64,000 bases of DNA from Thiospirochaeta perfilievii (GTDB lineage: Bacteria > Spirochaetota > Spirochaetia > DSM-2461). Of the stretch, positions 4,273 to 56,174 are shown piece after piece. The DNA is taken from the NCBI RefSeq assembly GCF_008329945.1, contig NZ_CP035807.1, positions 1,178,001 to 1,242,000 of the forward strand, in the 5' to 3' direction. Numbering within the stretch: position 1 is the first letter of the stretch; each line of letters starts with the position of its first letter. The notes beneath the pieces were generated by a model, which was not told the origin of the DNA, ran no database searches, and was given only the letters and a program-made list of their open reading frames with translations. The position numbers and the translations under genes were made by a program.

Positions 4273-4320
4273 AATAAACTATAGTAATTATTAGTTCTTC
4301 CGTATTAAATTGTCACTACG

Positions 4321-4388: not shown

Positions 4389-4403
4389 TTATTTTAGTTA
4401 CAA

Positions 4404-5371
4404 TTACCAATACCTTTTAACCATTTTTAAATAATAACAATCTTCACCCTTAATTAGCCTATATGCATTACCATCATTATCAATTGCAAATCTTGGCATA
4501 TCAGATCTTCTAGCTTCTTTGAAGTCAATAACAAAAAGTGTTAATAATTTACCAGTTTTATCAAAGACAAAACATCCTGCATAGGATGTCCAATAATAAT
4601 TTCCATCTTTATCAATACCACTAAATTTTGCATCTTCTTCAAACTCTAATTCCTTAAAACTTTTTATCTCATCTCTGCTAAAAGATTTCTTAAAAAAAGA
4701 TAAAAACTTAGAAGGACTCTTAGTGATGAACATATCGTTTTCAAATAAATATTTTTCTGATATGATTTTGAGCACAGAACTATTATTGGTAATATATTCT
4801 ATTGCTTCATTATTTAATAATATAGAATAAGGTTTCTCATTTTCTTTTTAGTATCTATAACTACAAAACTATTATTTTTAGCTTCACCAATAAATAGATC
4901 TTCGAATATAGTAGAACCCCAGTAAATTACCTTTTGTGTAGATAGTCCTGTGTGTCCATCAAGAAAAGATCTACTATGAAATTCCATTGTATTAGTTTCC
5001 AAATCATATTTAAATACTGAATTTGATAAGATATCATAATTATATAAGTGATTGTTCTTTATTTCTAAGAATCCTGATACAGTATTTATATCAATATTTG
5101 GAAGAACTATAAAATCTGATAAATCATGTGATGCTTTTACAAATCTATTATTCCATTGATCCCCGAATATAAAATAATCCTTAGTGATTACTATATCTGT
5201 TATACTCTGATGTTCGGCACCTCCGTAATCATATTCTTTTCCTAATTGTCTAATGCTTTTACCGTATGGAATTTCTAATAAAGTTTCCATTGAAACTTTA
5301 TTAATAGCTATTTCACAATATATTGTATTTATAGTTAATATAACTACTATTAAAGATACTATTCTTTTCAT
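4404..5371 (-). pseudogene. Secreted beta-propeller protein, module 6, split by a frameshift
   Basis: Two frames, 4814-5371 (185 aa, with signal peptide MKRIVSLIVVILTINTIYC) and 4404-4775 (123 aa), together give one protein of about 320 residues, matching the intact propellers at 8147-9124, 12457-13431 and 17243-18220. Reading continues without a gap if the frame is shifted in the A-rich run at 4840-4849 on the complementary strand (after VIDTKK into EKPYSILLNNEAIEY). Blade-like repeats such as FVKASHDLSDF and CFVFDKTGKLLTLFV are visible. The start has AAAGGAG 6 nt upstream and lies 2 nt past the stop of the preceding NlpC/P60-like frame, so the pair was coupled. Role unknown. Confidence 0.75.
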
Positions 5372-5373
5372 AT

Positions 5374-7283
5374 TTATTCTCCTTTATTTAACCTTACAAC
5401 ACGCCAATGCCTATCATTTTCTACCCACCAGTTCAATGTTTGAGAGTTCCGTACCCAAGACAAGTTTGAACCTCCATCACTAAAATTAGATTCTATAATT
5501 TTACACTCACTCGGTATAATATTTCCTAAAGAATCCCTTCCAATACTTAGTACTATACCTATGTGCTTCCCTCCGCCAGGATTATTACTATCAGGATCTC
5601 CTATATGATAAAAAATATCACCTGGTTTAACAAAGTTATAGTTTCCTACAACTTTATATTTTCCTAGGTTATTAGTTTCACTATTAGATTTACCAACAAT
5701 AAAAGTAGAATAATTTAAAGTACTGTTTTCATCCCTTAATTGTGAATCTTCTAATGTTCTAGGATAAGCTCTGTTTATGTTATTAGCAGGCCATTTATTA
5801 CCACTAATATTAGCTGCATTTTGAGCAAATCCTATACAGTCAACACCTGCAGCCCTATCACTCCAATATTCCTTTCCAGCTAAAAATGTTCCGTTAGCCT
5901 CAGCATTATTAACAACAGAGTAGATAGATTCCCTAAACTCCTCAGAAGCTTGTATATTAGGATTTTTAGACCACTCAATAAGTCCCAATCCTGGAAGATA
6001 GAGATCTATGGACTGATCCTGTTCCTTCACATAATTGTCCCAGTTATTTTCAAATGCGGTTGTTTCATTCCAGCTTAATAATGATATCCCATGATCAGTA
6101 AAAGGTTCAGATTCATTAAGATCAGCAGTATAATCTTCAACTAACTCATTATACTTTTCAAGTGTAAACAAACTACGATCTGTAACATTTTCTAAATTGC
6201 CCCATTCTGTCTTAGCTTTCTTAAATCTAGTACCAACATTGTTATAGTACTCCGATAGCCTATTTTTCTGAACCAATATTTTATCATTAAACATGAATGG
6301 AGTATCACGACCATTTATAGTTGTTGTACTTTCAGGATAATTATATGCGACACTATCAAGTTTGTTAGTATCACCAAATATAGAATTATATTGTAGTATA
6401 TCGACCACTTGTCCTCCATTTCCAACATTTTCTTCATCTCCATTGTGATTCCACTTATTTTCACTATACCATATAATTTCAGAATCATTTGAGTCTCCAT
6501 TTGCTTTAACAAATCCAAATTCATTATAATGCTCCTCATCACTTAGACCCTTATTAAAAGTATCATTTATTGTTAATGGAGCATTCCATTTATATTTATC
6601 ATTCCAATCCTCAATATTAGTTTCTTCTATATAAAGGTTAGCTCTCCATAGCATCTTCTTGTCATAAACTGCTATAAAGTCTTCATCTTTTGATACACCT
6701 GTTATTACTTCACTGTTTTTTTTACCAAATCTAAGTAAAAAGTCATCACCAGGTCTTATATTAGATTCCATAGGTCGTACTGCAAATTGGGTTAGAGTGA
6801 CTCCTGTTGGAATTGTAAAAGATAATTTATTACTATTTACCTTTAGAGAATAACCTTCATCTAGTTCATATTGACCTTCTGAGTTTTCTGTATAAAACTC
6901 TGGATTATATATAACTTTATATGGACTCTCATTGCTGTTAAGAGGTTCACTACCAATAGGTTTTAGTTCAAATGTTGCTAATAAAATTGCATTTTTACCA
7001 TTTAATGCATAAAACTTAAGTCCATCACCTTTATTTTGGTAAATATTAGAGTCTGCTTCTAATATTGTTTCTTCAGAATCATTAATCTTTTCTTGATAGT
7101 ACTGGTCAAATGGAGGAAGTATTTCAATATCTCTATCACCCTCTTTTAGGTTTTCAATCTCTCCACTATAGTTACCTTTTATTCTGATAGAATCAAATTT
7201 ATATAACTCTCCTGTATTTGGAATCCAAGGATAATCCTTTTTTTCATGTCTTAAATCTATATCTAAACCAATTAATGTAGTGT
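5374..7283 (-). pseudogene. NlpC/P60-like secreted protein, module 6, start-less C-terminal copy
   Basis: The frame is open from the edge of hairpin repeat b (about 7283) to the stop at 5374. The internal ATG at 6771 gives 465 aa, but homology runs straight through it upstream, so there is no native start. It begins at DTTLIGLDIDLR, which aligns with DTELIELDV of the full-length protein (19536-23792), exactly where full-length copies stop being near-identical. Downstream come the RPGDDFLLRF/WRANLY/WNAP unit and a C-terminal papain-fold domain: AGVDCIGFAQNAA (catalytic Cys), VKPGDIFYHIG, GKHIGIVLSI (catalytic His) and a final HWRVVRLNKGE. A silent or dead module. Confidence 0.75.
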
Positions 7284-7396
7284 CTGGCTGCTCCGGGCTA
7301 CGCTTAGCTTCGACCTAGCAAGTTTGTTTGGCTAACAGATGTATGCACATTGCCCTGCGTATCCATTTCGCAAGGCAATGTGCATACATCTGTCGC
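7284..7396. repeat. Multi-hairpin repeat, copy b
   Basis: Begins at CTGGCTGCTCCGGGCTACGC (the first hairpin of the family is missing) and ends at the long stem with loop TATCCATTT and arms of the CAGATGTATGCACATTGCC type. It lies between module 6 and the propeller remnant of module 5, immediately past that propeller's stop codon. Confidence 0.8.
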
Positions 7397-7412
7397 ATTT
7401 TATTTTATGATC

Positions 7413-7830
7413 TTACCATTGTCTGGGTATTTTGTATAAATTTAATATAGTATCTCCATTCAACTTATTTTTAGATAGATAATATACATCTCCATTAGAG
7501 CTAATAGTAGGTAGCATGAATGGCTTTTCTGCGTATTCGAAATCATCTAAAACCCAACCGTTTTCATCAAAAACAAGAATTCCACAAAAATCTCCAAAGT
7601 AAATATTCCCCTGCTTATCTTTACCAATAAAACTTGGATTAGCTACTTCGAGTTTCTTAAATGAAGGGACTCCTGGAACTTCTCTTGGAGCTTTCCTGTT
7701 ACTCCCTTTATGTAATACATTCTTCCAATATTTATATAAAATCTTATAACTGTTATTTTGGATTTCACCTTTCTTAAAGATCCTATATCTATTATCAATA
7801 GTATAATCATATAGTTTAGGTAGATAGCTA
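7413..7830 (-). pseudogene. Beta-propeller C-terminal remnant, module 5
   Basis: Minus-strand translation gives LYDYTIDNRYRIFKK, VPGVPSFKKLE, GILVFDENGWVLDDF and the end LNLYKIPRQW, closely matching the C-terminal half of the propeller at 12457-13431 (YTIDAKRRIFF, IIPGVPDFEKL, GIIIFDSNGWVLDYL, YKIPRQW). The N-terminal half and signal peptide are absent. At its upstream edge it is fused to an N-terminal piece of the NlpC/P60-like protein, so this is a deletion product that has lost more than 3 kb of a module. Confidence 0.75.
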
Positions 7831-8019
7831 TATATGGGTTCTTATTACCATATATTGAATCAAATGATTTCTCATTTATATCTAAGAAAGGTAGTTTAGC
7901 TGTTCTATTTGAGAACTCCTCACTCAATTTACTTGTTACACTCTCTTTACCTAGAACAAAGTGTGATGCAAAAGCTGCTTTAAACTTATTCTGATGTTTT
8001 AATAATTCATAGTATTTTT
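7808..8019 (-). pseudogene. NlpC/P60-like protein N-terminal fragment fused to propeller remnant, module 5
   Basis: From 8019 the frame encodes the same stretch that opens module 2 (ending in SEEFSNRTAKLPFLDINEKS and NPYIAIYLNY), then crosses into propeller sequence at about 7808-7832. Both parents share a short match at the join (roughly CCTAAACTATAT on the minus strand), suggesting microhomology-mediated deletion. The ORF 7643-7927 (94 aa) spans the join but is out of frame with the propeller after it. The upstream edge (about 8019) is the same breakpoint as in module 2 (about 17088), directly next to a hairpin repeat. Confidence 0.7.
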
Positions 8020-8026
8020 AAGTTTT

Positions 8027-8146
8027 GGGCGAATAGTAACTTTAGTTACTACCTGGCTGCTCCGGGCTACGCTTCGCTTCGACCTAGCAAGCTAGTTTGG
8101 CTAAAGCCACCCTACGTATCCATTTCGTAAGGTGGCTTCGCTTTTT
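8027..8146. repeat. Multi-hairpin repeat, copy c
   Basis: Full-length copy beginning GGGCGAATAG, with hairpin TAGTAAC-TTTA-GTTACTA, then CCTGG..., CTAGC-AA-GCTAG, and a final stem AAGCCACC / GGTGGCTT (8104-8111 and 8131-8138) around the conserved loop TATCCATTT. The final stem has a different sequence from copies b, e and f, yet the two arms still pair. It ends at the stop codon of the propeller at 8147. Confidence 0.85.
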
Positions 8147-9124
8147 TTATTTTTTTTTATTCTCTGATACTTTTCTTTGATTAATCCTACTTTCTTTTGT
8201 TAAACTATAAAAATCAATACTTTCAGTCTCTGTTTCTCCATATAACATGAAATATAAGTCACCATTGAGACTAACTGTTGGTTTATGACGATACCATAAT
8301 CCAGGAATAGTGAAATATTCTAAGCACTCACCCCATTTTGAAAGTACTACTATATTTCTTTTACCATTATGATAATCAATAATCCAAAAACTATTTAAAT
8401 CTTTATCAAAGCCAATTATTTCTGAAGAAGTGTAACTTGTATCATCAAAAAAGACAGAATCTTTTAGATCCATAGCACTATTAGTTTTCAAATTTTTAAA
8501 TAGTTTCCTATATGGTGCCATACTTTTAGAAACTGCATAAATATTTAAGTTGTCTTCTAATTTTATTTCAACGTGATCTTCAGAAAAATTTACTAGGTTG
8601 TATTTTGGAGGGAATTCCCCTTTGTTTACACCATTTTCTATATAATAAAATAGACCCTCTGGGTTAGATCTCCTAGTATAAAATAGTTTGTTATCAATAA
8701 AAACAACATCACCATCTATATCTGTATTATCTCTGAAAATATATTTGACTTTTCCCTTATTTAAATATGAGATATGGGAACTAGAAGTACTGTAAATATA
8801 TTTAGTGTCATTAGAAATATACATGTTCTTTATATATATAAATTCATCACCTCTTGATAGGCTATATTCTTCAGTAAGGTCCCAATTATTATCATACTTT
8901 TTTATTTTACTATTCATTGTATCTTTAATATAAAAATTATCTTTAGAATCTATTGTAAATGCGCTAGGTCCTGAGTAAAAATAAATATCATAAAACAATG
9001 GTCTAAAACCAAGTTGAAATGACTCTGTACCTTTAGGAAATTTCTTTGCTAGAGTCAGTTCTAACTCTTCAGCTGATAATTGATTTAATATCAATAAAAT
9101 TATGATTAAGTATATACGTTTCAT
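8147..9124 (-). CDS. Secreted beta-propeller protein, module 4 (intact)
   Basis: 325 residues with a signal peptide (MKRIYLIIILLILNQLSAEE) and repeated blade-like strands such as SKIKKYDNNWDLTEEYSL, FVIDNKLFYTR and FWIIDYHNGKRNIVVLSKWG, the pattern of 6-bladed NHL/TolB-type propellers. It should be exported across the inner membrane; no lipobox is seen. The start has AGGAGATAAT directly upstream and lies 8 nt after the stop of the NlpC/P60-like frame, so translation is probably coupled. The C-terminus is very lysine-rich (VSENKKK) because the gene runs into the T-rich end of hairpin repeat c. Homologous to the propellers of modules 1, 2 and 6 but clearly diverged. Could be an immunity, inhibitor or scaffold protein for its partner; nothing here decides between these. 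Confidence 0.75.
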   Translation of the reverse strand: MKRIYLIIILLILNQLSAEELELTLAKKFPKGTESFQLGFRPLFYDIYFYSGPSAFTIDSKDNFYIKDTMNSKIKKYDNNWDLTEEYSLSRGDEFIYIKNMYISNDTKYIYSTSSSHISYLNKGKVKYIFRDNTDIDGDVVFIDNKLFYTRRSNPEGLFYYIENGVNKGEFPPKYNLVNFSEDHVEIKLEDNLNIYAVSKSMAPYRKLFKNLKTNSAMDLKDSVFFDDTSYTSSEIIGFDKDLNSFWIIDYHNGKRNIVVLSKWGECLEYFTIPGLWYRHKPTVSLNGDLYFMLYGETETESIDFYSLTKESRINQRKVSENKKK

Positions 9125-9132
9125 ATTATCTC

Positions 9133-9717
9133 CTATTTAAATCTTTTAGTTCGAAAATTAGTATAATTTCTATACTTAAAAATCGTATTCAAATTTATAA
9201 CTTTGTATTTCCCACTATCAAAAGCAGATTCTAATAAATAGATCCTTTTATCCAGTTCTTCTGTTCCCTCTTCTATCCTTAATATTATTGCGACATGTCC
9301 TGGTTTATATATGAAGTCTCCAGGTTTTAATTTGGATCTGTTTTGTTCAGAAATAGTATATGAAGCACTATCATAACCACTTGGACCCATTAGTTGTGAT
9401 GTTGGCCAGCTTCCCCATTCTAACATACCTTGAGGAAGATCTTTAACAGTATCATAACTATTATTATTATAGTTTGCAGATTGTGACATAAATCCAGAGC
9501 AATCTACTCCTATTGAGTAAGATGTTAGTACAGATGTGTTACTATTATATATGAAATCTCCATATTTTGCCATCGTTGAAAATCCTGGAGTATATGGTGA
9601 AAAATCTTCTCCATCTATAGTTATTTTATTGAATAAATAAGTTCCATTAAGAGAACCAAATCTGTAATTTATATTACTGTTTTGATATTTTTCTGATTCA
9701 TTATTCCAGAATATAAC
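9133..9717 (-). pseudogene. NlpC/P60-like C-terminal domain, module 4, cut by an IS3 element
   Basis: The frame stays open from the IS boundary (9717) to the stop at 9133; the ATG at 9573 (146 aa) is internal. It encodes YTPGFSTMAKYGDFIYN, then GVDCSGFMSQSANY with the catalytic Cys, LKPGDFIYKPGHVAIILRIE with the catalytic His, and LLESAFDSGKYKV, so the papain-fold core itself looks intact. Everything upstream was lost to the IS3 insertion and rearrangement. It is followed 8 nt later by its propeller partner. Confidence 0.75.
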
Positions 9718-9793
9718 GGTCTAACTTTTTTAAACAGCATATTCTAAAAATTAAATTCACTCCTGTATATATAAATGTATAATAGGAGATAAT

Positions 9794-10072
9794 ATGGGTA
9801 GAAGAAAAAAGCATGATAGTGCATTTAAGTTAAAAGTAGCCTTAGAAGCTATCAAAGAAGAAATTACAGTAAGTGAAATAGCTAGTAATTATGAAATTCA
9901 TCCTCAGCAAGTTAGGCAATGGAAGAGGGAATTCTTACAGAATGCAGAATCAGTTTTTCAAAAAGATGATGTAGATAAGAAGAAAGTAGAAGAATTAGAA
10001 ACTGAAAAGGAAGACCTCCAGAGTTTAATAGGACAACAAACTATAGAGATCAATTTCTTAAAAAAAACTTGA
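9794..10072 (+). CDS. IS3-family transposase OrfA
   Basis: 92 residues. MGRRKKHDSAFKLKVALEAI followed by SEIASNYEIHPQQVRQWKRE is the helix-turn-helix DNA-binding domain of IS3-family OrfA; the C-terminal half (VEELETEKEDLQSLIGQQTI) is a leucine-zipper-like coiled coil used for multimerisation. It stops at an A-rich run (10060-10067). OrfB coding sequence (KKLEKVEHRLKV) continues in another frame right after that run, as expected for a frameshift-produced OrfAB fusion, although the frame relation here is +1 rather than the usual -1. Confidence 0.85.
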   Translation: MGRRKKHDSAFKLKVALEAIKEEITVSEIASNYEIHPQQVRQWKREFLQNAESVFQKDDVDKKKVEELETEKEDLQSLIGQQTIEINFLKKT

Positions 10073-10088
10073 AAAAGTTGAACATCGA

Positions 10089-10928
10089 TTGAAGGTGCCT
10101 ATGGTCTCTAAAGATGAAAAATTATCACTTTCAAAACAGTGTGATCTACTTAATATTAATCGCTCAAGGATATACTATACCCCTAGAACGAAGTCCAAAG
10201 AAGATCTTATGATAATGCGTCTTATTGATGCTTTATATCAAGAGAATCCTTGTATGGGTAGTAGAAGAATGAGTAAAGAAATCTCTAAGACTCATGGTAT
10301 AAAACTAGGTAGACTTAGAGCTCGTAGGTTGATGAGAGAAATGTGTATAAGTGCTATATATCCCAAGAAAAACCTTTCAGTACCTGATTCAGAGCACAAA
10401 ATCTATCCATATCTGCTTAGAAATTTACGGATAGAGAGACCTAATCATGTATGGTCTACAGATATTACATATATTCCGCTTTCAGGTGGTTTTGTATACC
10501 TTACGGCTGTTATTGACTGGTATAGTAGAAAGGTTCTGACATGGAAACTATCAAATACAATGGATGTTGGCTTTTGTAAATCTGTAGTAGTTGAAGCTAT
10601 AGCTAAATATGGTACTCCTGAAATATTTAACACAGATCAAGGGTCTCAATATACAAGCAAAGAATTTACAGATCTACTTAAAGATCATGAAATTAAAATC
10701 AGTATGGATGGTAAAGGTAGAGCTCTAGATAATGTATTTGTTGAAAGGTTATGGAGATCAGTTAAACAGGAAGATGTATATCTTAAGGATTATAGAGATA
10801 TTAGAGATGCAAAAAGGCATCTAACTAATTATTTTGAGTACTATAATAATAGACGAAGACATCAATCTTTAGATGATGAATTCCCTGAAGATATATATTA
10901 TGGTAAGGTTAAATTAATAGCAGCTTAA
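10089..10928 (+). CDS. IS3-family transposase OrfB (DDE integrase core)
   Basis: 279 residues from a TTG start, though natural expression is likely as a frameshifted fusion to OrfA. The N-terminal HTH_21 segment (MGSRRMSKEISKTHGIKLG) precedes the DDE core: VWSTDITYIP (Asp), IFNTDQGSQYTSKEF (Asp) and DNVFVERLWRSVKQEDVYL (Glu), then the closing NNRRRHQSLDD. All catalytic residues are present, so the element may still be active. The ATGGTC at 10101 is an alternative start. Confidence 0.88.
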   Translation: MKVPMVSKDEKLSLSKQCDLLNINRSRIYYTPRTKSKEDLMIMRLIDALYQENPCMGSRRMSKEISKTHGIKLGRLRARRLMREMCISAIYPKKNLSVPDSEHKIYPYLLRNLRIERPNHVWSTDITYIPLSGGFVYLTAVIDWYSRKVLTWKLSNTMDVGFCKSVVVEAIAKYGTPEIFNTDQGSQYTSKEFTDLLKDHEIKISMDGKGRALDNVFVERLWRSVKQEDVYLKDYRDIRDAKRHLTNYFEYYNNRRRHQSLDDEFPEDIYYGKVKLIAA

Positions 10929-10978
10929 TGGCGGGTGTGAATTTAATTATGCTATATGCCTGTTTGATTAATTAGACC

Positions 10979-11247
10979 ACTATAGTCTACATCAATGTCC
11001 TTAATAAAGCTAAAATTCTCATCATAAAAGTTAATTCTAAGATTAACCATATCAATAGTTATATAATTATCATTATAAAATTGTATACCTTTAGGGAAGG
11101 ACTCTGTATTACCTTTATCAAAACCTATCTCATTTTTTCCAGAACCAATATAAAATGTATGGATAAGCTCCTCATTATACCTATTTAAATCTTCTGTTAC
11201 GCCATAATAGCTAACAAAAAAAATAATATAATAACTTTAGTTTTCAA
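10979..11247 (-). pseudogene. Beta-propeller N-terminal remnant, module 3, frameshifted
   Basis: A TTG start at 11247 (KTKVIILFFLLAIMA, signal peptide) overlaps the end of the preceding NlpC/P60-like frame, the same arrangement as module 2 at 13421-13431. The frame hits a TAA just after the signal peptide; after a shift it continues DLNRYNEELIHTFYIGSGKN and YNDNYITIDMVNLRINFYDE, aligning with the N-terminus of the propeller at 12457-13431. It is cut off at 10978 by the IS3 element. Confidence 0.7.
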
Positions 11248-11815
11248 TTTTCAACCTCCCTATAATCCAGTTCTTATGAATGGGATTACCATCTAGATCC
11301 TTTTTTTTATGATAAAAATTCAAATTATTCTTATTACCAACTCCCCATAATCCAATTTTTATCTTTATTATGATAATAACTAAGATCGTTTTTATTACCA
11401 ACTCCCCATAACCCTTTTAAACCTTTTATATTTTTAATTCTTGAATCATGTGTAGATTCAATTAATATTATATCACTAACTTCTATATCTCTGTCCCCAT
11501 TACTTATTATAACATTTTGAACCATGGCTACATGATACCCAGATCCTTGATTAGGTGTAAATACAATATCACCAGGAATCAATCGTTTTCTATTCTCAGG
11601 TTTTGTACCATACTTATCATATTGAGATTCACTCATGATTTCATACAAGTTATTATTATTGACATTATATCCAGAAGTATTCGGGCCTACATCGTGTACG
11701 TTTCTTTCTGCTATATCTGCTAAAAGATTATTTGTAGCTTTCGATATGTATTTTGTCCCTTTATAAGCCTCTGACATATATAACAGTCCACCACAATCTA
11801 CACCTGCTAAAAACC
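11237..11815 (-). pseudogene. NlpC/P60-like C-terminal domain, module 3, with duplicated tail
   Basis: Starts near AGVDCGGLLYMSEAYKGTKY (catalytic Cys just upstream of the ATG at 11777 that opens the 147-aa frame) and continues with HDVGPNTSGYN, RLIPGDIVFTP, YHVAMVQNVI (catalytic His) and LIESTHDSRI. It is close to the C-terminus of the 1191-aa frame of module 2. Near the end, a segment encoding LWGVGNKN occurs twice (about 11331-11352 and 11391-11413), so a 60-bp partial duplication throws the first frame into a premature TAA at 11334; the original end KNWIIGRLKIEN lies in another frame. Upstream it joins an IS66 relic. Confidence 0.7.
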
Positions 11816-12073
11816 TGTAGTAAGATGTATTGTAAATTCTCCATAACTTAAAATTATTGGACTTTCAATATTTGATACGGGACTTGATTTGGTGTTTTCT
11901 TTTATTTCTACAAAATTTGTTTTCTGCAATTTCTTTCTATTCTTATAGAAAGCTGTATTGTGAATACCCTTCTCATTACAAAAAATATCTATACTTTTCC
12001 CACTGTTTTCTTGCTCTACTATCAGTTCTTTCCAATCTCTTGTTTGTCTTTCTTCATTTTTTCCTCCATTTCT
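11807..12073 (-). pseudogene. IS66-family TnpA remnant
   Basis: Minus-strand frame reads DWKELIVEQENSGKSIDIF, NEKGIHNTAFYKNRKKLQK and NFVEIKENTKS, then GEFTIHLTTGF and a stop. This aligns along its length with the intact IS66 TnpA at 40402-40695 (RKQLVIEQQKSGLTITEF, NIKQTTFQNWLRRLKE, KFVKVKLK, INSIKLEIPA). A GGAGG and ATG near 12062-12073 mark the old start, but a frameshift follows within the first codons. The rest of this IS66 element is gone. It is replaced directly by module 3. Confidence 0.65.
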
Positions 12074-12114
12074 AATGGAGTGTAAATGATTATGAAAATT
12101 TTAGAAGGTGGGGT

Positions 12115-12363
12115 TAATTATCGCTTACTTTACATCACCACTATTATAGAGAAGCTAGTTAGTAACTTTGAAAAATGTTAAATCTCAAAAGACATCTTCA
12201 ATTGAGGTTTAATTTAAATATGTCTAAGATTAATAAATAAGAAGATATTAGAATATTATTTGATGAAACCTCTACTGTAAAGTAGAGATTAGCTAATAAA
12301 CTAAAGTAATAAAGAGTCTTAAAATTGTTATTTTTCTTACTTCCGTATTAAATTGTCACTACG
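12115..12363 (+). mobile_element. Integrase-core element, copy 2, 3' remnant
   Basis: The + strand reads LTLHHHYYREAS and a stop at about 12160, matching the C-terminus LHNHHYREAS of the integrase at 3887-4138. It is followed by about 200 bp of noncoding tail with a degenerate version of the copy-1 hairpin (CTCTACT...AGTAGAG near 12270-12290) and the same terminal sequence at 12340-12363. The element ends inside hairpin repeat d. The transposase body is missing. Confidence 0.7.
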
Positions 12364-12445
12364 GGCTACGCTTCGCTCCGACCTAGCAAGCTAGTTTTAC
12401 TAAAGCCACCCTGCGTATGCATTTCGCAAGTTGGCTTCGCTTTTA
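12364..12445. repeat. Multi-hairpin repeat, copy d (left part replaced by a mobile element)
   Basis: Begins GGCTACGCTTCGCTCCGACC directly after the integrase-core element, then CTAGC-AA-GCTAG and a final stem of the AAGCCACC / TTGGCTT type with a variant loop TATGCATTT. It lies 11 bp from the stop of the module 2 propeller. Compared with copy a, the mobile element entered at a different base of the repeat. Confidence 0.8.
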
Positions 12446-12456
12446 TTTTTATGATT

Positions 12457-13431
12457 TTACCATTGTCTGGGTATTTTGTATGTATTAAAAACAGTTACGC
12501 CATTAACTTTCTCACTTGTAGCATAATAAATATCACCATCTTCATTTATTGTTGGGCCCAAGTAAGCAAAATTATTAAATTTTAAATAATCAAGAACCCA
12601 TCCATTAGAATCAAAAATGATTATTCCAGTTTTACTAGACCAATATGAATTTCTACTTAAATCAAATCCTATAAATGGAGAAGTTATTCCACTAAGTTTT
12701 TCAAAATCTGGTACACCAGGTATTATTCTAGGTGGAGTCATATTATTTGCATCATGAAGCTCTACCCAATAATTATATAATGTTATGAAATCATTGTTTT
12801 GAATATGATTTTTAAAAAAAATACGTCTCTTAGCATCTATAGTATAACCATTTAGTAAGTATTTATCTTTCTCATTGAACAATTCCAATGTTTCCTCTTC
12901 ATTTAATAGCCTGGAATATTTCATTTCGTCTTCATCTACTAAGACAAATGAACATAAAGAACCATCATTCATATAATTAAATATAACCTTATCTGTGAAT
13001 AGAACTCTATCTTTAGAAGAAATAGAGTCAGGGAAATTTAGTTCAGTAATATTACCAGTGCTAATATTAAAAGCTGTTACAAATTTATTATACCCACTAC
13101 TAAAAATTATGTTATCCATTATTTTTGACTTACTATTTCTCAATAATCTAAAATCAACTTCCAACTCTTTTTCTAATGAAAAGTCTACATTATAAAAATT
13201 AACCCGTGAATTAACAGTATCAAATAATATAAAATAGTCTTTATATTTCTTTAATAATTTAGGAAATAGTTCATTGTTACCTTTAGATTCTACCCCCTCT
13301 ATTAGACCTATTTCTCCTGGCATTGAACCTGTACTAAAAGTAAAGACATGTTGTTCGTCATAATTATTAAATCCTTCTCCATATAAATAATTACATATAA
13401 TAAAGAAAACAAGCACAAATCTAAATTTCAA
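12457..13431 (-). CDS. Secreted beta-propeller protein, module 2 (intact)
   Basis: 324 residues from a TTG start (minus strand) preceded by GGGAGG; the start lies inside the last codons of the NlpC/P60-like frame (11-nt overlap), so the pair is translationally coupled. Signal peptide KFRFVLVFFIICNYLYGEG, then repeated strand patterns such as RVNFYNVDFSLEKELEVD, KFVTAFNISTGNITELNF and GIIIFDSNGWVLDYLKF typical of 6-bladed propellers. The end FNTYKIPRQW is shared with the remnants of modules 5 and 7. No catalytic residues recognised. Probably periplasmic or surface-exposed, working with the upstream papain-fold protein. Confidence 0.75.
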   Translation of the reverse strand: MKFRFVLVFFIICNYLYGEGFNNYDEQHVFTFSTGSMPGEIGLIEGVESKGNNELFPKLLKKYKDYFILFDTVNSRVNFYNVDFSLEKELEVDFRLLRNSKSKIMDNIIFSSGYNKFVTAFNISTGNITELNFPDSISSKDRVLFTDKVIFNYMNDGSLCSFVLVDEDEMKYSRLLNEEETLELFNEKDKYLLNGYTIDAKRRIFFKNHIQNNDFITLYNYWVELHDANNMTPPRIIPGVPDFEKLSGITSPFIGFDLSRNSYWSSKTGIIIFDSNGWVLDYLKFNNFAYLGPTINEDGDIYYATSEKVNGVTVFNTYKIPRQW

Positions 13432-16400
13432 TTTTTAACCTCCCTATTATCCAGTTTTTATGATTTGGACTTCCATCAGACTTAACAACTTTATGATAGA
13501 AGTCAAGTGTATTTCGATTACCCACACCCCATAATCCTGCAATACCAAAAGAATTCATAATTCCACTATGATGTGTAGATTCAATTAAATAAATATTATC
13601 AACATTAATTTCTCTACTCCCTTCAATTATATCTATTTCTTGTACCATAGCAACATGATAACTTGGGTTTGAGTAAAACATTATATCCCCAGGAATTAAT
13701 CTTTTTCTGTTACTAGGTTTTAAGCCTAAGTCAGGGGTATATTCACTCTCATTCATTATCTCATATAAATTATTACTAGAGTGTGAATAACCTGATGAAC
13801 CAGGACCGACATCATGGACATATCTAGCTGCAATATCTGCTAATATTTCTTTACTTTGATTACTAATGTATTTTGAGTTTGTATAAGCTTCAGCCATATA
13901 AATAAGACCACCACAGTCAACACCAGCTTGTTGGTTAGAATACCAACTATCCGAATCATTTACATCATAATTATCAAAACCACTTACTGTATTAACTTTA
14001 TTTGTACCATCTTTATAAAATAATAATGGTTTATTTTCTGGTGTTGGTTGAGCAAACACTGAATTTTGATATTTAGTTACACCGCTAATAACATTCCACC
14101 CTTTTGCATGTAAAGAATCCCATGCTCCAGGTTTTGGTGCAGTTTTATCATATCTTGACCACCATAATAGTGCATCTTTGGCGTCTAACAAACCAGGTCT
14201 AAGTTTACCAGCAGGATCATTAGGTTCTGCAGGTAGAATTCTCTCGACATCTATACCAACATTCTTATTATAGTCTTCTTTTAATAATTCAATAACCATT
14301 TTATTAACTTCTGAATTATCTTTGTTATATTCATCAATTGCACTACTCATCGCTATTAAAGAAGCAGATTCTCGTAATTGCAACGGAGCTAATTGTTTTA
14401 ATAAGTTATTATAATATAAAAATGGAGAAGTAGTTCTAACAAAATTGTACACCATATAATCAGCAACGAGACCATCACTCCACCTTGAATTATTATATAC
14501 TGCACTAGGAAATGAGACGACTTGTCCTCCATGACCTTCATCTAGATCACTTAAATCTTCCCAGGTCCCATTCATTTTAAACTTTTCAGCTTGAGAATTA
14601 CTCTCCATGATCCTGTTCCATTCATTTTGAGCATACCAAATTGTTTCACTATTATCAGAAGAGTTTGTTGATGCAAGTTTGAAACCAAACTCATTGTAAT
14701 ATTTATCAGTTTGTAAGCCTTTATTTAGTCCTTCATTAATAGTTGTAGGAGCATTCCAAGGGTTCTGTTCATTCCAATCTTTAGAAGATGGAGTTCTTAT
14801 ACCATATTTTTTGTCTGTATCATTATCAATAAATAGGTTTGCTCTCCATAATAGCTTTTTATCGTAAACTGCAAGGAAATCTTTATCTTTTGATACACCT
14901 TGAACCTCTAAGTTATCCTGTTTAGCAAATCTTAATAGGAAATCATCACCTGGTCTTATTTTACTGTTTATTGGTCTAACACCAAACTGAGAGTAGGTTT
15001 TATTTTTAGTTTTAAACTTTAATGTTGATCCTTCGACGTATAATCTGAAATCAGGTTTTGTTCTACCTACAGATGAACTAACAAATATATCTTCTGAATA
15101 CTCTACAGAGTAAGGACTTTCATCTTTTCCAACCAAACCACTATTTTTAAGTTTAAATGTCGCCAATAGAACAAATTCAGTTCTATTTATTTTTTCATTA
15201 TGCTGCTTAGCATAAAATTTAAGTCCATCCCCCTTATTCTGATAAATGTTAGAACCAACTTCAGCTTTTAGTTTTTTATCTTCACCTAAATACTCATGGT
15301 AGAACTCATCAAATGGTGGTAATATAGTTATATCTTTATCATCTTCTTTTAAGTTAGTTAACTCATCATCCCCATAGTTACCTTTTATTTTAATTGTATC
15401 TATACCAAGAATTTCCCCTGTATTAGGAATCCAATGAGATTCTCTAAGTTCACCTGTTCTACTATTTATTATTCTCTTAAACTCCATATCAACATCTAAT
15501 TCAATTAACTCAGTATCAAAGAACTCAAAGTTATCATTAACATATGATATGTTATCACCTGAAGTTGTTGGTTTAACTAACATTCTTCTTAGATGGTATT
15601 TTTTCTCTTCACCAGGTTTAGTAAAACCTCCATAGACACCTTCCTCTGATAACCAGACACCTACATTAGCCATTCTAAAACCACTGTTGATAGAGACTAC
15701 TAATATGTTCTTCATATAATCTTCAACAGTTGAGTTTGAATCTAGACCTGTAAAGTCAGCGGATATTATTACACCTATCATTGGCTCATTGTTTGTATAG
15801 TTAACTAGTATGTCTCCAGGTCTAGCCATTGATAGATCTGGTAGTAGAATCGTAGACCTCTCTAAGTCTACCTTTGTAAATCTATATGGTTTCTTTAGTT
15901 GATCATTAATATCTAAGACATGGTAGGTTGGGTTTTTCTGGATATAGTTAGCATCTAACTCTTCATCTATTTTAGTGTTAAATACGTTTAGGTAATCACC
16001 TGCTATATCAGTCATAGAAAGTGAACCCATAAGTAGACCTAATGAGTCAACACCTGCTGATTTATTAGGGTGATATAAACTATCTTGATCAGCAGAATAT
16101 AGTTGTTTTGTCTCTGATCTAACACCAGGTAGATATGGTTCTATCTCATAAAATGTAGCATCTATACTAGGTAGTGTTGTTTCATATTTACCTGCACCAG
16201 CATCTTTCTTTAAGGTAATTCCTGCTTCTCTGTATAGATCTATCTCATCAACATAACTATCGTAATATGAACTTGTTGCCATAGTTGTTGAAAAAGTACC
16301 ATTTGCAAATGCTGGATAGTTATCCAAGGTATATACATCCCCTATATACTTCTCCATCAACCATCTTCTAGCTAGATTCTGTTTATATAATTTGTAGTTA

Positions 16401-17090
16401 AATGTTTTAGGTGTATCTATACCCATAGCAGAGTATGCTATTGGGTTACCCTGAGAGTTACTATAAGGAGATGTAATTAGGTTTTTATCATATATTTTAC
16501 CTAATGGAGAGTTTTCTTCAACTACACTAGGTCTATTGAATATTTTAACCTCACCATTAAAGTAATTATTTGATCTGTTTGACACATTAAGTAAAGCTCC
16601 GTTAACCCACTCTTTAACTTCAACTGAGTTTGTAGCATATACTTTATAGTCAGATTTATTATTCTCATCTTCCGATCTAACACCAGGAGTATACTCTAGA
16701 GCCCATGTCATATACTTAAGTGCTGACTCTGCAATATCAATTCCCTCTTGTTCAGTAACTTGTCTGTATTGGTTGTAGTTATACTTTATCTCATCTGTAT
16801 TGTTTTCATTAACTTTCTTATTTATTAAATATGATAGTACAGGTTTTGAACTCTTACCATTCTCCACTTCAGTTGCAATATAGTTAAGGTATATAGCTAT
16901 ATATGGGTTCTTATTACCATATATCGAGTCAAATGATTTCTCATTTATATCTAAGAAAGGTAGTTTAGCTGTTCTATTTGAGAACTCCTCACTCAATTTA
17001 CTTATTACACTCTCTTTTCCTAGAATAAAGTGGGATGCAAAAGCTGCTTTAAACTTATTCTGATGCTTTAATAATTCATAGTATTTTTAA
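13421..17090 (-). pseudogene. NlpC/P60-like protein, module 2: long frame without native start
   Basis: An uninterrupted frame reaches from about 17090 to 13421; using a TTG at 16996 it would give 1191 aa. It lacks the first 280 or so residues and the signal peptide of the full-length protein and begins, next to hairpin repeat e, at YYELLKHQNKFKAAFASHF. Residues 1 to about 500 of the 1191-aa frame are near-identical to the full-length copy; after DTELIELDV they diverge. A degenerate papain-like unit (AGVDSLGLL, Cys replaced by Ser) lies near residue 315. The C-terminal domain is intact-looking: AGVDCGGLIYMAEAY near 1027, RLIPGDIMFY, SYHVAMVQEI near 1115. Without promoter and signal peptide it is likely silent unless recombined. 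Confidence 0.8.
15487..17088 (-). repeat. 1.6-kb homology arm, copy in module 2
   Basis: This stretch matches 21437-23035 of the full-length gene. By eye it is identical or nearly so over the roughly 800 bp from 16256 to 17060 and has scattered substitutions from 15487 to 16256. Similarity drops abruptly below 15487, where the variable part of the protein starts. Such an arm would permit homologous exchange of everything downstream. Confidence 0.8.
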
Positions 17091-17096
17091 GTTTTT

Positions 17097-17235
17097 GGGC
17101 GAATAGTAACTGAAGTTACTACCTGGCTGCTCCAGGCTACGCTTCGCACCGACCAAACAAGTTTGTTTGGCTAACAGATATATGCACATTGCCCTGCGTA
17201 TCCATTTCGCAGGGCAATGTGCATACATCTGTCGC
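17097..17235. repeat. Multi-hairpin repeat, copy e (most complete)
   Basis: About 140 bp of successive inverted repeats: TAGTAAC-TGAA-GTTACTA (17104-17121); CCTGG-CTGCT-CCAGG; CCAAACAA-GT-TTGTTTGG; and a 24-bp stem (17175-17198 with 17208-17231, one mismatch) around the loop TATCCATTT. It is GC-richer than its surroundings. It lies between the stop of propeller 1 (17243) and the truncated start of module 2. Five other copies: 4321, 7284, 8027, 12364 and 56020. It could act as a transcription terminator, an mRNA 3' end, or a recombination site. Confidence 0.9.
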
Positions 17236-17242
17236 TCTTTAA

Positions 17243-18220: not shown

Positions 18221-18284
18221 AACTCCCTCCGTAACCTTACAATGTACCAGTTATTATCTATTTTATCATGAATTATTCAATATC
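18217..18284 (-). pseudogene. Severed C-terminal tail of the full-length NlpC/P60-like protein
   Basis: Between the IS3 element and the propeller the minus strand encodes NNWYIVRLRREL and a stop overlapping the propeller ATG. This matches the tails of the other modules (HWRVVRLNKGE, NWIIGRLKIEI). It is therefore the original end of the gene that now stops at 19536. A stop lies between the IS edge and this piece in the matching frame, so some decay has followed. Confidence 0.65.
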
Positions 18285-18315
18285 AGTGCAGTCATAAATA
18301 CCTAAAATTTAATAT

Positions 18316-19152
18316 TTATGCAGCTGTAAGTTTCTCCGTAATCATCTCCCTAAATACAGTTGGAGGAAATCCACCTTCATTTACAGTACAAATCCTTTGA
18401 CGATTATAATATGTCATCACATATCTCCAGACTATAGTTTTTACTTCCTCTCTTTTCAACTTTTTAGTATTAATCTTATATACTTTCTCTTTTTTTAGAG
18501 TTGCAAAAAAACTTTCCATACGACTGTTATCATAGCATTTACCTACATCACTCATACTCTGAATAGCTTTAAATCCCCCAAGCGTATTTTTATATTTTTC
18601 ACTTGTATACTGCGATCCAGCATCACTATGGATGATGACTCCATTCCCTGGATTTCTTAACTTATATGCCTCCTTGACTGCATTTATACATAATTCTTTT
18701 CTCATATGACTATCCATAGCTAGACTTATTATTTCTCCTCCAAAACAGTCAAATATTGGAGCTACATACAACTTTCCATCAGAGCAAGGTATTTCTGTAA
18801 TATCAGTCAACCACTTCTCGTTTGGTTTAGAAGCTGTAAAATCCCTTTTGATAACATTATCCGGTCTATTTGCTTTTTTATCAGATTTTGTAAGTCCATT
18901 AGGGCTTCTTCTACTCTTATGAAGAAGATTTCCCTTCCTCATTGCTCTAATTACAGTTGATCTGGAACATTTTATTATACCTTTTTGCTTCAAAGCTAAC
19001 TGCATCCTCTCGATTCCATAATTCTCATTATCTGGATGTTCATCTAAAATCTCATGCATTTGGACCAGAAGAAGTTGCCATGCTTTAGGACGGTTTCTAT
19101 TCCTTTTCCATTTATAAAAACCCGTCTCACTGACATTTAGAGATTTGCACAT
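18316..19152 (-). CDS. IS3-family transposase OrfB (DDE integrase core)
   Basis: 278 residues from the first ATG; coding sequence without an ATG (PEEVTKKEIFAYIKDQSVEE) continues upstream toward orfA, so the natural product is probably an OrfAB fusion. Helix-turn-helix segment HPDNENYGIERMQLALKQKG is followed by KWLTDITEIP (Asp), VIIHSDAGSQYTSEKYK (Asp) and SRMESFFATLKKEKVY (Glu), the DDE triad, and YYNRQRICTVNEGGFPP at the end. Probably functional. Confidence 0.88.
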   Translation of the reverse strand: MCKSLNVSETGFYKWKRNRNRPKAWQLLLVQMHEILDEHPDNENYGIERMQLALKQKGIIKCSRSTVIRAMRKGNLLHKSRRSPNGLTKSDKKANRPDNVIKRDFTASKPNEKWLTDITEIPCSDGKLYVAPIFDCFGGEIISLAMDSHMRKELCINAVKEAYKLRNPGNGVIIHSDAGSQYTSEKYKNTLGGFKAIQSMSDVGKCYDNSRMESFFATLKKEKVYKINTKKLKREEVKTIVWRYVMTYYNRQRICTVNEGGFPPTVFREMITEKLTAA

Positions 19153-19217
19153 TTTTATAACTGGTATTGATTCTTCAACACTTTGATCTTTTATATATGC
19201 AAAAATCTCTTTTTTTG

Positions 19218-19493
19218 TTACTTCTTCCGGTCTTTGGCAAAAAAACCAAGAGCATCCTTTAAAATTTCATTAGCTTGCTTTAGCTCTTGAATCTCTTTTT
19301 GCATTTTTAGTTCTCTATCTGTCATTGGAGTTGTATCTTTTTGAACTACATTTATACTCTTTTTACTCCTGTTCCTTCTCCAACCTGAAAGTGTGCTATA
19401 CTTTACTCCAAGTTGATCTGAAGCTTTTTTTAATCCTATTTCATCAGATAATTTTAGAGCCTGATCTTTAAATTCTTTACTGTACGTTGTCAT
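19218..19493 (-). CDS. IS3-family transposase OrfA
   Basis: 91 residues: MTTYSKEFKDQALKLSDEIG and KKASDQLGVKYSTLSGWRRN form the helix-turn-helix, and ELKMQKEIQELKQANEILKD a coiled coil ending DALGFFAKDRKK. The codons for GFF contain a T-run that would let the ribosome slip by -1 into the orfB frame, the standard IS3 expression mechanism. Confidence 0.88.
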   Translation of the reverse strand: MTTYSKEFKDQALKLSDEIGLKKASDQLGVKYSTLSGWRRNRSKKSINVVQKDTTPMTDRELKMQKEIQELKQANEILKDALGFFAKDRKK

Positions 19494-19535
19494 TTATACC
19501 CCTTTATATTTTTTCGGATATTTTAGACTGCACTT

Positions 19536-22500
19536 TTATAATAATCCTCCATCATTCAATGTTTTTTCTTTCCTGACATACCCATAAGTGTTCCAATCTG
19601 TAGACTCAATCAATTTAATATCTGACTCATTTATACTATCACCGTCATTTGCTATCTCATATATCATCATAACATGCATACCTCCATATGTCCCATCACT
19701 TGCTGGAACCGCAGGTTCTGTAGGTGTTGCTTCTTTAGATTTATTACAATAGTAAAGTAGATCTCCTACTTTAATATCTGAAAAGTCATACTCTAAAATA
19801 GGTATACCCTCGTCATCAATACCTATTCGAACTTTCTCACCTTTTTTCTTAATTAGGTATGAGCTCCTATCATAATAAGGGTAATAAGTATCTATTCTAC
19901 TTTCTCCCCATGTTGCTGGAATAATATTCCCCCATATATGAGTGCCTTCTCCATACTTATTACCTAAATAACTAGCTGAATTCTTTACAAAACCTATACA
20001 ATCTGTACCAGCTGTATATCCTGCTGATATATCCTTAGGCCATGCACCACCTCCCATTTGATCAGAAACATTATTAGATAGTGAAGGTAGATAAGCATAG
20101 TAATCTTTCCCACTGATTGTTTTCTGCTCACCAGTAATCGATTTGATTATTGAATCTAGAGTTAGTGGATAATTACCTTCTTCATCTGCTTCGGATAAAG
20201 TCGAAAGTGTATATTTTGTAGAACTATGGATATAGTTAGCATATAACTCTTCAGGTGCAGTTGTTGAATCCCATGTTAGTGTTACTTCTTGTAAGTTGCT
20301 AGTACCACCAGCAACATAGTCTCCGTTTTCTTTAAAGTAGTAATTGAGTAATTTTCTCTGATTATCTGTTTTAAAGTTGAACTCAAAAGGTCCATCCATT
20401 CCAATCCAATCATAAGCGACTTTGTTAGCTTGGTTTACTCCTGCACTATGATTTATTGACCAGGTTGATGAATTTATAGAGATTACACTCTGAGTACCAT
20501 TACCTTGTTCTAACTTGTTATCATCTGTTGATATATTGGTTATATCAAAATCATCCTGTTTATCATGAAATTCATTTACAAGCTTTTCAAAATCATAAAC
20601 TCTATTCCACTCATTTGGTCCATACCATATACTCTCTTCAGTATCCATTACCTGAGTTGATGTTAGAAACCTAGTTTTTACATCTTCTCCTACTTTATAT
20701 TCACCCATAACTTCTTCAGCATCTTCTTTAACTGGAGGAGCATTCCATGGAAAGTTATTATTCCAGTCAGCTTCACCTTTACCTTCATTTATGTAAAGAT
20801 TCGCTCTCCATATCATTTTCTTATCGTATAACGATATGTAATCATGAACTTTTGTTTTTCCACTAATCTCATAGTTATTCTGTAGAGCAAATCTAAGTTG
20901 AAGATCATCACCTGCTCTTACCTTCTCATTTATAGGTCTTATTGAGAATTGATTATATAATGTATTAGTTTCTCCATAAACAGTAAACTTTAACTGGTTA
21001 GATTCTACAGCTAACTTAAAACCATCTTTAACCTGTCCCAATGAGTTCTTAAATATATCTTGATTGTATTCTATATCATAAGGACTTTTACCCTCTTCAT
21101 GATTAGTAATATTACCTTTTAGAGTAAATGTAGCAAGAAGTATATGATTTACTCCATCAGTAGCATAAAACTTATATCCCTTACCTTTATTTCTATATAT
21201 ATTAGACTTATCAGCTGTAATTGCAGCTAATTTTTCACTATCATTAGTAAATGTTCCCCTCATATTAGTATTATACGGATCAAGAGGAGGTAATATCGTT
21301 ACATTTCGATCTTCTTCTTTTAACTTTTCAGGATCATCCCCATAGTTACCTTTAATTTCTATTTTCTCTATAATTAAAAGTTCACCAGTATTAGGAATTA
21401 AATTGATCTCATCACCATTAACACTTTTATAATCAACTTCAACATCTAACTCAATTAACTCAGTATCAAAGAACTCAAAGTTATCATTAACATATGAAAT
21501 GTTGTCACCTGAAGTTGTTGGTTTAACTAACATTCTTCTTAGGTGATATTTTTTCTCTTCACCAGGTTTAGCAAAACCTCCATAGACACCTTCCTCAGAT
21601 AACCAGACACCTACATTAGCCATTCTAAAACCACTGTTGATAGATACTACTAATATTTTCTTCATATAATCTTCAACAGTTGAGTTAGAATCTAGACCTG
21701 TAAAGTCAGCAGATATTATTACACCAATCATTGGTTCTTTGTTAGTGTAGTTAACCAGTATGTCTCCAGGTCTAGCCATTGATAGATCTGGTAGTAGAAT
21801 CGTAGATCTCTCTAAGTCTGCCTTTGTAAATCTATATGGTTTCTTAAGTTGATCATTAATATCTAATACATGGTAGCTAGGATTTTTCTGGATATAGTTT
21901 GCATCTAACTCTTCATCTATTTTAGTGTTAAATACGTTTAGGTAATCACCTGCTATATTAGTCATGGTAAGAGAACCCATAAGTAGACCTAATGAGTCAA
22001 CACCTGCTGATTTATTAGGGTGGTAAAGACTATTTTGATCAGTAGAATACAGTTGTTCTGTCTCTGATCTTACACCAGGTAGATATGGTTCTATCTCATA
22101 AAATGTAGAATCTATACTTGGTAGAGCTGTTTCATATTTACCAGCACCAGCATCTTTCTTTAATGTAATTCCCGCTTCTCTATATAGATCTATCTCATCC
22201 ACATAACTATCGTAATATGAACTTGTTGCCATAGTTGTTGAAAAAGTACCATTTGCAAATGCTGGATAGTTATCCAAGGTATATACATCCCCTATATACT
22301 TCTCCATCAACCATCTTCTAGCTAGATTCTGTTTATATAATTTGTAGTTAAATGTTTTAGGTGTATCTATACCCATAGCAGAGTATGCTATTGGGTTACC
22401 CTGAGAGTTACTATAAGGAGATGTAATTAGGTTTTTATCATATATTTTACCTAATGGAGAGTTTTCTTCAACTACACTAGGTCTATTGAATATTTTAACC

Positions 22501-23792
22501 TCACCATTAAAGTAATTATTTGATCTGTTTGACACATTAAGTAAAGCTCCGTTAACCCACTCTTTAACTTCAACTGAGTTTGTAGCATATACTTTATAGT
22601 CAGATTTATTATTCTCATCTTCCGATCTAACACCAGGAGTATACTCTAGAGCCCATGTCATATACTTAAGTGCTGACTCTGCAATATCAATTCCCTCTTG
22701 TTCAGTAACTTGTCTGTATTGGTTGTAGTTATACTTTATCTCATCTGTATTGTTTTCATTAACTTTCTTATTTATTAAATATGATAGTACAGGTTTTGAA
22801 CTCTTACCATTCTCCACTTCAGTTGCAATATAGTTAAGGTATATAGCTATATATGGGTTCTTATTACCATATATCGAGTCAAATGATTTCTCATTTATAT
22901 CTAAGAAAGGTAGTTTAGCTGTTCTATTTGAGAACTCCTCACTCAATTTACTTATTACACTCTCTTTTCCTAGAATAAAGTGGGATGCAAAAGCTGCTTT
23001 AAACTTATTCTGATGCTTTAATAGTTCATAATATTTATCATTAAAGTTCTCAGCGGTTATATAATCTGATACAGATGGAATACTGGATGAGTTAATATCA
23101 CTAAAAAGTGCTGTAGCATTATCTATAAAATTAGACCTCTCTGCTGTTTCTGTAATACCAGTTACATTACCACCAGCATCTTCATTCTCTGTTATAAAGA
23201 ATGTGGATAAGAAGAAAATAATTTGTTGTTCATAAGTTAGAGTACTATCATCACCAAAGAATGAATTAAAAAATTCTTCTTCACCACTAAAAAAGTTAGG
23301 AGAAACATTCGTATCAATATTATATACTTTTCCACTCTGGGTTATAGTCCATACAGTTAATTTTACTTTGTTTAGAGATGTATCAACTGAGACTTCAACA
23401 TCTCCATTTGAATTAAACTCAGCAAACAGTGCACTGTCTACTTCAACTGTACCCTTAGAAGTTGTTGATTCCTCATCATTTATAGTAATAGTTTTAGTCT
23501 CTGTGGTAGTAATTGATGTAAGTTTTTGTTTAAGTTCAACATTATCATAAATAACATTACCATCTTGATCATATAACGTATCACCGACCTTCACTATTAC
23601 ATATTTAACAGCTTCATCTTGATCTAAGTTATGAAACTTATAGACTATTTTACCGTATCTGTTCTCTGCAGAAACTGCTAGTTCTGCTTTACCATCATCA
23701 CTCTTTGCAGTTTCTGAACCACTTTTTCCAAATAACGAGAGAGACAGAGTTATCATTGTAATTAGTAGTAGTATTCTTTTTATGTTTTTCAT
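19536..23792 (-). CDS. Full-length secreted NlpC/P60-like multidomain protein, module 1
   Basis: 1418 residues, the only copy with a proper start: ATG overlaps the TAA of the giant upstream gene (TAATG) and encodes a signal peptide (MKNIKRILLLITMITLSLSL). Residues about 25-170 look like a beta-rich domain; from 280 the shared module sequence begins (SEEFSNRTAKLPFLDINEKS). Three papain-like units can be seen: near 597 AGVDSLGLL (Cys lost), near 1120 AGVNQANKVAYDW (Cys lost), and near 1260-1370 AGTDCIGFVKNSA, VGDLLYYCN, MHVMMIYEI with Cys and His retained. NlpC/P60 enzymes cut or transamidate peptide bonds, often in peptidoglycan; here the substrate is unknown. An IS3 element removed the last residues (after LNDGGLL). 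Confidence 0.8.
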   Translation of the reverse strand: MKNIKRILLLITMITLSLSLFGKSGSETAKSDDGKAELAVSAENRYGKIVYKFHNLDQDEAVKYVIVKVGDTLYDQDGNVIYDNVELKQKLTSITTTETKTITINDEESTTSKGTVEVDSALFAEFNSNGDVEVSVDTSLNKVKLTVWTITQSGKVYNIDTNVSPNFFSGEEEFFNSFFGDDSTLTYEQQIIFFLSTFFITENEDAGGNVTGITETAERSNFIDNATALFSDINSSSIPSVSDYITAENFNDKYYELLKHQNKFKAAFASHFILGKESVISKLSEEFSNRTAKLPFLDINEKSFDSIYGNKNPYIAIYLNYIATEVENGKSSKPVLSYLINKKVNENNTDEIKYNYNQYRQVTEQEGIDIAESALKYMTWALEYTPGVRSEDENNKSDYKVYATNSVEVKEWVNGALLNVSNRSNNYFNGEVKIFNRPSVVEENSPLGKIYDKNLITSPYSNSQGNPIAYSAMGIDTPKTFNYKLYKQNLARRWLMEKYIGDVYTLDNYPAFANGTFSTTMATSSYYDSYVDEIDLYREAGITLKKDAGAGKYETALPSIDSTFYEIEPYLPGVRSETEQLYSTDQNSLYHPNKSAGVDSLGLLMGSLTMTNIAGDYLNVFNTKIDEELDANYIQKNPSYHVLDINDQLKKPYRFTKADLERSTILLPDLSMARPGDILVNYTNKEPMIGVIISADFTGLDSNSTVEDYMKKILVVSINSGFRMANVGVWLSEEGVYGGFAKPGEEKKYHLRRMLVKPTTSGDNISYVNDNFEFFDTELIELDVEVDYKSVNGDEINLIPNTGELLIIEKIEIKGNYGDDPEKLKEEDRNVTILPPLDPYNTNMRGTFTNDSEKLAAITADKSNIYRNKGKGYKFYATDGVNHILLATFTLKGNITNHEEGKSPYDIEYNQDIFKNSLGQVKDGFKLAVESNQLKFTVYGETNTLYNQFSIRPINEKVRAGDDLQLRFALQNNYEISGKTKVHDYISLYDKKMIWRANLYINEGKGEADWNNNFPWNAPPVKEDAEEVMGEYKVGEDVKTRFLTSTQVMDTEESIWYGPNEWNRVYDFEKLVNEFHDKQDDFDITNISTDDNKLEQGNGTQSVISINSSTWSINHSAGVNQANKVAYDWIGMDGPFEFNFKTDNQRKLLNYYFKENGDYVAGGTSNLQEVTLTWDSTTAPEELYANYIHSSTKYTLSTLSEADEEGNYPLTLDSIIKSITGEQKTISGKDYYAYLPSLSNNVSDQMGGGAWPKDISAGYTAGTDCIGFVKNSASYLGNKYGEGTHIWGNIIPATWGESRIDTYYPYYDRSSYLIKKKGEKVRIGIDDEGIPILEYDFSDIKVGDLLYYCNKSKEATPTEPAVPASDGTYGGMHVMMIYEIANDGDSINESDIKLIESTDWNTYGYVRKEKTLNDGGLL
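21437..23035 (-). repeat. 1.6-kb homology arm, copy in the full-length gene
   Basis: Partner of 15487-17088. The match ends upstream at about 23035, where module 2 passes into hairpin repeat e, and downstream at about 21437, where both proteins read FFDTELIELDV before diverging. Module 6 begins at the equivalent of that same downstream edge. Confidence 0.8.
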
Positions 23793-56157: not shown

Positions 56158-56174
56158 CTTTTGTTATTATGATT

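Follow-up and report, generated by a model that had tools for sequence, protein, structure and literature searches.

A candidate polymorphic toxin/immunity system with hydrolase-type tails and propeller partners in Thiospirochaeta perfilievii and other Spirochaetota

We analysed a stretch of 64,000 nucleotides from the Thiospirochaeta perfilievii genome (contig NZ_CP035807.1, positions 1,178,001 to 1,242,000; hereafter the window). Its minus strand carries an array of one full-length core gene (M1) and five 3' modules (M2 to M6), most of them paired with a propeller gene (P1 to P6). The array probably belongs to a spirochaete polymorphic toxin/immunity system in which tails of the peptidoglycan-hydrolase type are paired with propeller immunity proteins and displaced modules persist as orphans. 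A sequence-only reading of the window had likened the modules to the orphan toxin/immunity modules of polymorphic toxin loci. We support this likeness because a second locus exists in the same genome, tail and partner are exchanged as a unit between near-identical flanks, the two co-vary, and alternative enzyme domains occupy the C-terminus.

The exchange of tail and partner was observed in relatives. Two loci about 1 Mb apart in genome G319 (L113 and L114) are 100% identical over about 1.7 kb and 95-99% identical up to about 2.3 kb, whereas identity is mostly 29-60% through the remainder of the effector and the larger part of the propeller, with one short island of 83%; at the partner C-terminus, it is back at 87-98%. 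At a locus linked to the type II secretion system (T2SS), comparison of G319 with G360 (matching T. bryantii B25 L058) gave 88-99% identity upstream, 35-65% over effector and propeller, 66-90% at the partner C-terminus and 95-100% downstream. The comparisons that support unit exchange are L113 versus L114, L112 versus L118 and the two units of L014. In a third comparison, near-identity was broken only within the NlpC domain, over part of its length, and at a single patch of the propeller. Three features that mark polymorphic toxin systems are thus present: an exchangeable C-terminus behind a conserved exported part, a partner gene directly downstream that is swapped with the tail, and start-less orphan modules homologous to the core.

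Tail similarity followed partner similarity across 31 pairs (Mantel rho 0.52, with none of 5000 permutations as high). Within genomes the rho was 0.92, a value reached by none of 2000 partner shuffles; between genomes the Pearson value was reached by 1 of 500 shuffles and the Spearman value by 21 of 500. With core similarity controlled, the partial r was 0.45. In the window, the M1 core is closest to that of M2, and the M1 tail and propeller are both closest to one Treponema module. These correlations point to joint inheritance, not to binding.

The second locus (L014, G000:C1:2.522-2.530 Mb) consists of a full gene, a propeller, a truncated gene and another propeller, and is an intact version free of insertion sequences (IS). 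Its two units are near-identical over about 400 bp at the 5' end and reach 98.5% identity in the final 538 bp of the propeller. The inner part, which covers the linker, the NlpC domain and the first part of the propeller, is a mosaic of 35-100% identity.

Most C-termini of the family are NlpC/P60-CHAP-like, and the Cys, the His and a PGD motif do not vary in alignments of 15 and of 19 sequences. Pfam matches among 19 members were to NLPC_P60 (7), CHAP (4) and ELLD (4), all of them weak; the best E values were 2e-4 for CHAP and 7e-4 for NLPC_P60, and a PDB profile search gave weak matches at E 0.4-0.7. Pfam returned nothing for the whole core proteins. At five loci (L069-L072 and L022), an M23-like domain stands in place of the NlpC type. 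Pfam matched M23 in two of these five (E 1e-4 and 8e-4), and the other three were assigned from HxxxD-like and HxH motifs read directly. The NlpC- and M23-type tails occur on related cores. Since both families are normally peptidoglycan hydrolases, the tails are regarded here as putative peptidoglycan hydrolases. For the partner, a model of P2 (predicted local distance difference test score, pLDDT, of 71) had its best PDB fold matches among propeller proteins (WD40, NHL and BamB), and the partner profile matched NHL domains at E 6e-9. The partner is thus a predicted NHL-like beta-propeller.

The array of start-less modules behind one full-length copy, as described in the sequence-only reading, was recovered at roughly the same positions and lies on the minus strand. 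M1 (19536-23792, 1418 aa) encodes the full-length core protein with a signal peptide and an NlpC/P60-CHAP-like C-terminus, and it is indeed the sole copy in the array with a start, a signal peptide and an upstream operon. However, IS3-type transposase genes (18316-19493, minus strand) inserted near the 3' end separate the last M1 codons from P1 (17243-18220). The conserved tail motif NWYIVRLRRE sits past this insert, and M1 is therefore not intact. M2 (13421-17086) is a start-less core copy that opens mid-gene at about M1 codon 252. Its DNA matches that of M1 at 94% identity over 1.78 kb and then diverges abruptly, with a complete C-terminal domain that differs from that of M1. P2 (12457-13431) follows it. 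In both M1 and M2, at about M1 codons 600-720, we noticed an apparent second, degenerate NlpC-like stretch in which Ser replaces Cys (SAGVDSLGLL ... PGDILVN).

Downstream of P2 on the same strand, M3 (about 11346-11834) is a fragment of the C-terminal domain with Cys and His, and P3 (10970-11227) is a 5' remnant of a propeller. An IS3-type element on the plus strand (9794-10928) interrupts the M3/M4 region and cuts off the upstream part of M4 (9136-9540, or 9136-9700 at its widest), whose C-terminal domain keeps Cys and His; P4 (8147-9124) lies next to it. M5 is only a 209-bp core fragment (8017-7809) fused to P5, a 3' remnant of a propeller (together 7416-8017). M6 (5374 to about 7280) lacks a start, covers the core from about codon 775 onwards and has a complete C-terminal domain containing Cys and His; it is followed by the frameshifted P6 (4404-5371). 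P1, P2 and P4 are intact secreted propellers with signal-peptide-like starts. As a correction to the earlier reading, several of the modules are remnants. When the whole source genome was searched by pattern and profile, the C-terminal domain was found seven times, and propellers were found at two loci only, plus one remnant.

Apart from P3, each propeller or propeller remnant in the window has a palindromic repeat 3' of it. The genome contains this repeat six times, in each case inside the window. Five stand after P1 (r17, 17100-17240), P2 (r12, 12320-12450), P4 (r08, 8030-8153), P5 (r07, 7280-7400) and P6 (r04, 4280-4400, with a chimeric stem). The sixth (56020-56170) lies beyond the T2SS operon beside a 3' propeller remnant (56178-56528), the pair spanning 56020-56528 on the minus strand like the other copies. 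The core motif of the repeat was matched 6 times against 0.09 expected, far beyond chance. M2 and M5 have an identical start junction immediately 3' of a repeat, and M6 begins elsewhere. The stems differ in sequence with pairing kept. Two types of stem and two of tail are combined in different ways among the copies, and one copy is chimeric, which suggests recombination inside the repeats. At L014, another palindromic repeat follows each propeller and occurs nowhere else in the genome, so that the 3' repeats are locus-specific and found only after propellers or their remnants. Rfam gave no match in the window.

The palindromes were considered as attC sites and rejected: they lack paired RYYYAAC/GTTRRRY (R''/R') boxes and are unlike the sequence around an integron integrase 2.4 Mb away (G000:C1:3612702-3613646, L082:18460-19650; 382 bits to TIGR02249). 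Next to this integrase, a unit of ~399 bp that lacks long open reading frames is repeated about 12 times in near-identical form (L082:8961-16334).

Beyond this species, a pattern was scanned against 84,980 species genomes and matched only Spirochaetota, at 16 loci, and a strict profile search gave a match in 12 of 393 Spirochaetota genomes. Directly downstream of almost every core or tail is a secreted protein of ~300-530 aa, mostly propeller-like; in relatives this partner often has SH3b, YARHG or F5/8-type additions. Modules without a signal peptide trail full modules in several genomes, and start-less orphan modules with core homology were found in the window and at L014, L048, L057 and L061. 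The propeller-like genes at L057:4411-5466 and L116:7184-8101 have no intact effector next to them and are possible orphan immunity genes. Two relatives join an NlpC-type tail to a dockerin (L066:5062-7611 and L073:8036-10279), and L066 also has a CBM3.

Upstream of M1 lies the gene of a giant Ig-like protein (23792-39966, minus strand), which is read in two frames (39966-39157 and 39109-23792) owing to a frameshift near 39.15 kb. At 39100-39200, the 5105-aa giant frame and a 269-aa frame bearing a signal peptide resemble one gene split by frameshift. Giant proteins (Ig/TIG/PQQ) homologous to it occur at 11 loci of relatives, directly 5' of the core wherever both ends are visible. T2SS genes adjoin the core or lie within about 12 kb of it at L048, L058/L118, L112 and L121 and in G152 and G067. 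In the window, a T2SS operon with secretin, T2SSE, T2SSF, T2SSG and prepilin peptidase genes (46450-55909, plus strand) lies about 30 kb from the core, and M1 combines this linkage with a signal-peptide-like N-terminus. Two more secreted proteins without a Pfam match (42612-43643 and 43872-44585) are encoded between an IS66 element and the T2SS operon, and a protease of the Clostripain family (C11) whose start is lipoprotein-like (45090-46379) lies just 5' of it.

These observations are best explained by the following mechanism, which we consider probable. The core protein, whose gene follows that of a giant cell-surface-type protein, would be exported by Sec and then probably through the linked T2SS. 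It would carry a C-terminal peptidoglycan hydrolase, NlpC/P60-CHAP-like here and M23-like in relatives, and the secreted beta-propeller from the next gene would bind its cognate hydrolase and protect the producer. Tail and propeller would be swapped as one unit by homologous recombination in conserved flanking DNA, namely the core upstream and the propeller 3' end with the palindromic repeat downstream. The displaced pairs would persist as start-less orphans, which may be fossils, provide spare immunity or donate sequence to later switches. The C-terminal switching proposed in the sequence-only reading is in agreement with the exchange at near-identical flanks in relatives. However, decay has affected part of the array in the window, and an IS interrupts the sole full-length copy; the array is therefore to be seen as a repository or a fossil record and not as a proven live switch.

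No description of the family was found among the open papers searched. PADLOC and NCBIfam gave no match, PHROGs gave no informative match, and a plasmid search returned no relative. In loci for contact-dependent growth inhibition (CDI), orphan cdiA-CT/cdiI pairs with core homology trail the main gene, pointing the same way and lying among transposases (PMC4927057). The spirochaete family resembles CDI and Rhs systems in having a large exported protein, an exchangeable C-terminus, a partner gene directly 3' and trailing orphan pairs, but it differs in its frequent T2SS linkage, hydrolase-type tails, propeller partners and upstream giant Ig/TIG/PQQ protein. Pfam found no CdiB, TPS domain or FHA repeats in the core proteins and neighbours scanned, the neighbours being T2SS genes, and no RHS repeats were recognised in the family. 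The sequence-only reading knew of no precedent for an NlpC/P60-type effector with a propeller partner. A partial one exists in the H1 type VI secretion system (H1-T6SS) of Pseudomonas aeruginosa, where the active site of the amidase Tse1, a papain-fold hydrolase, is occluded by periplasmic Tsi1, a fragmented, partial beta-propeller (PMC3391265). A papain-fold peptidoglycan hydrolase with a propeller-like periplasmic partner may serve as a structural model for the spirochaete pair. However, Tse1 is a stand-alone T6SS effector without orphan arrays, and Tsi1 is a three-sheet fragment, in contrast to the full-length NHL-like propellers with their additions in relatives. The likeness is drawn from descriptions; PDB profile searches with the family returned neither Tse1 nor Tsi1. 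NlpC/P60-type domains on large exported proteins are also found in the Tox-NLPC/P60 polymorphic toxins, where they are the toxin domain (PMC3482391).

Several points weigh against a toxin/immunity system. The window locus itself is damaged, L014 is without a giant gene, and T2SS linkage was not seen in Brucepastera, G059, G070 or G142. The effector C-terminal half was modelled poorly (pLDDT 49), with no significant fold match. Architecture, pairing, domain alternation and exchange between near-identical flanks are read directly from the DNA; we infer hydrolase activity, toxicity, propeller binding and T2SS export, as well as present-day switching in this strain, with one strain of the species compared. 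The fusion of the tail to dockerin or CBM3 in some relatives is also compatible with secreted wall digestion. The proteins could then be bacteriolytic or nutritional wall hydrolases, with the propeller as an inhibitor or folding partner dedicated to them in the periplasm, like T2SS lipases and their foldases, and with variation following substrate rather than kin conflict. T2SS linkage, hydrolase-type C-termini and the two dockerin fusions, one with CBM3, fit this alternative. We consider it unlikely, given that unit exchange at near-identical flanks and start-less orphans are hallmarks of toxin/immunity systems and that lone propellers are retained (L057).

The array could also be a decayed tandem duplication, its downstream modules being IS-driven debris without a role. 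The two IS insertions and the M3 and M5 remnants agree with this, as do the frameshifts of P6 and of the giant gene, which count as damage unless they are sequencing errors; a decay reading limited to M3, M5 and P6 may well hold. For the array as a whole it is improbable, as the downstream C-termini differ from that of M1 instead of copying it, and the arrangement recurs in other genera and at the IS-free L014. P1 and P4 also remain intact though the neighbouring effectors are broken, which we count in favour of a toxin/immunity system. The sequence-only reading had further compared the modules to silent cassettes of variable surface proteins. Start-less cassettes, secreted proteins and homologous flanks make variation of a surface antigen possible, but it fits the invariant catalytic residues less well. 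Moreover, the C-termini alternate between two hydrolase-type domains, and the variation extends over a paired second gene that co-varies, so that this explanation is very unlikely. That the array consists of integron cassettes, with the palindromes after the propellers as attC sites, is barely credible: the genome has the integrase, and the modules share one orientation, lack starts and are flanked by palindromes, but they begin at different points within one gene and the repeat is locus-specific.

It is about as likely as not that the toxin/immunity system forms an undescribed class of the Spirochaetota, in which a giant surface protein and the core use a dedicated T2SS and cysteine or zinc hydrolases are combined with full propeller immunity and orphan-cassette recombination. 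If the toxin/immunity reading is true, spirochaetes would possess a diversified antibacterial arsenal tied to type II secretion; to our knowledge, few antibacterial weapons have been described in these bacteria. Full beta-propellers, noted as absent in a 2012 survey, would join the known immunity proteins, and the closely related genomes would allow the exchange of tail and partner to be studied directly.
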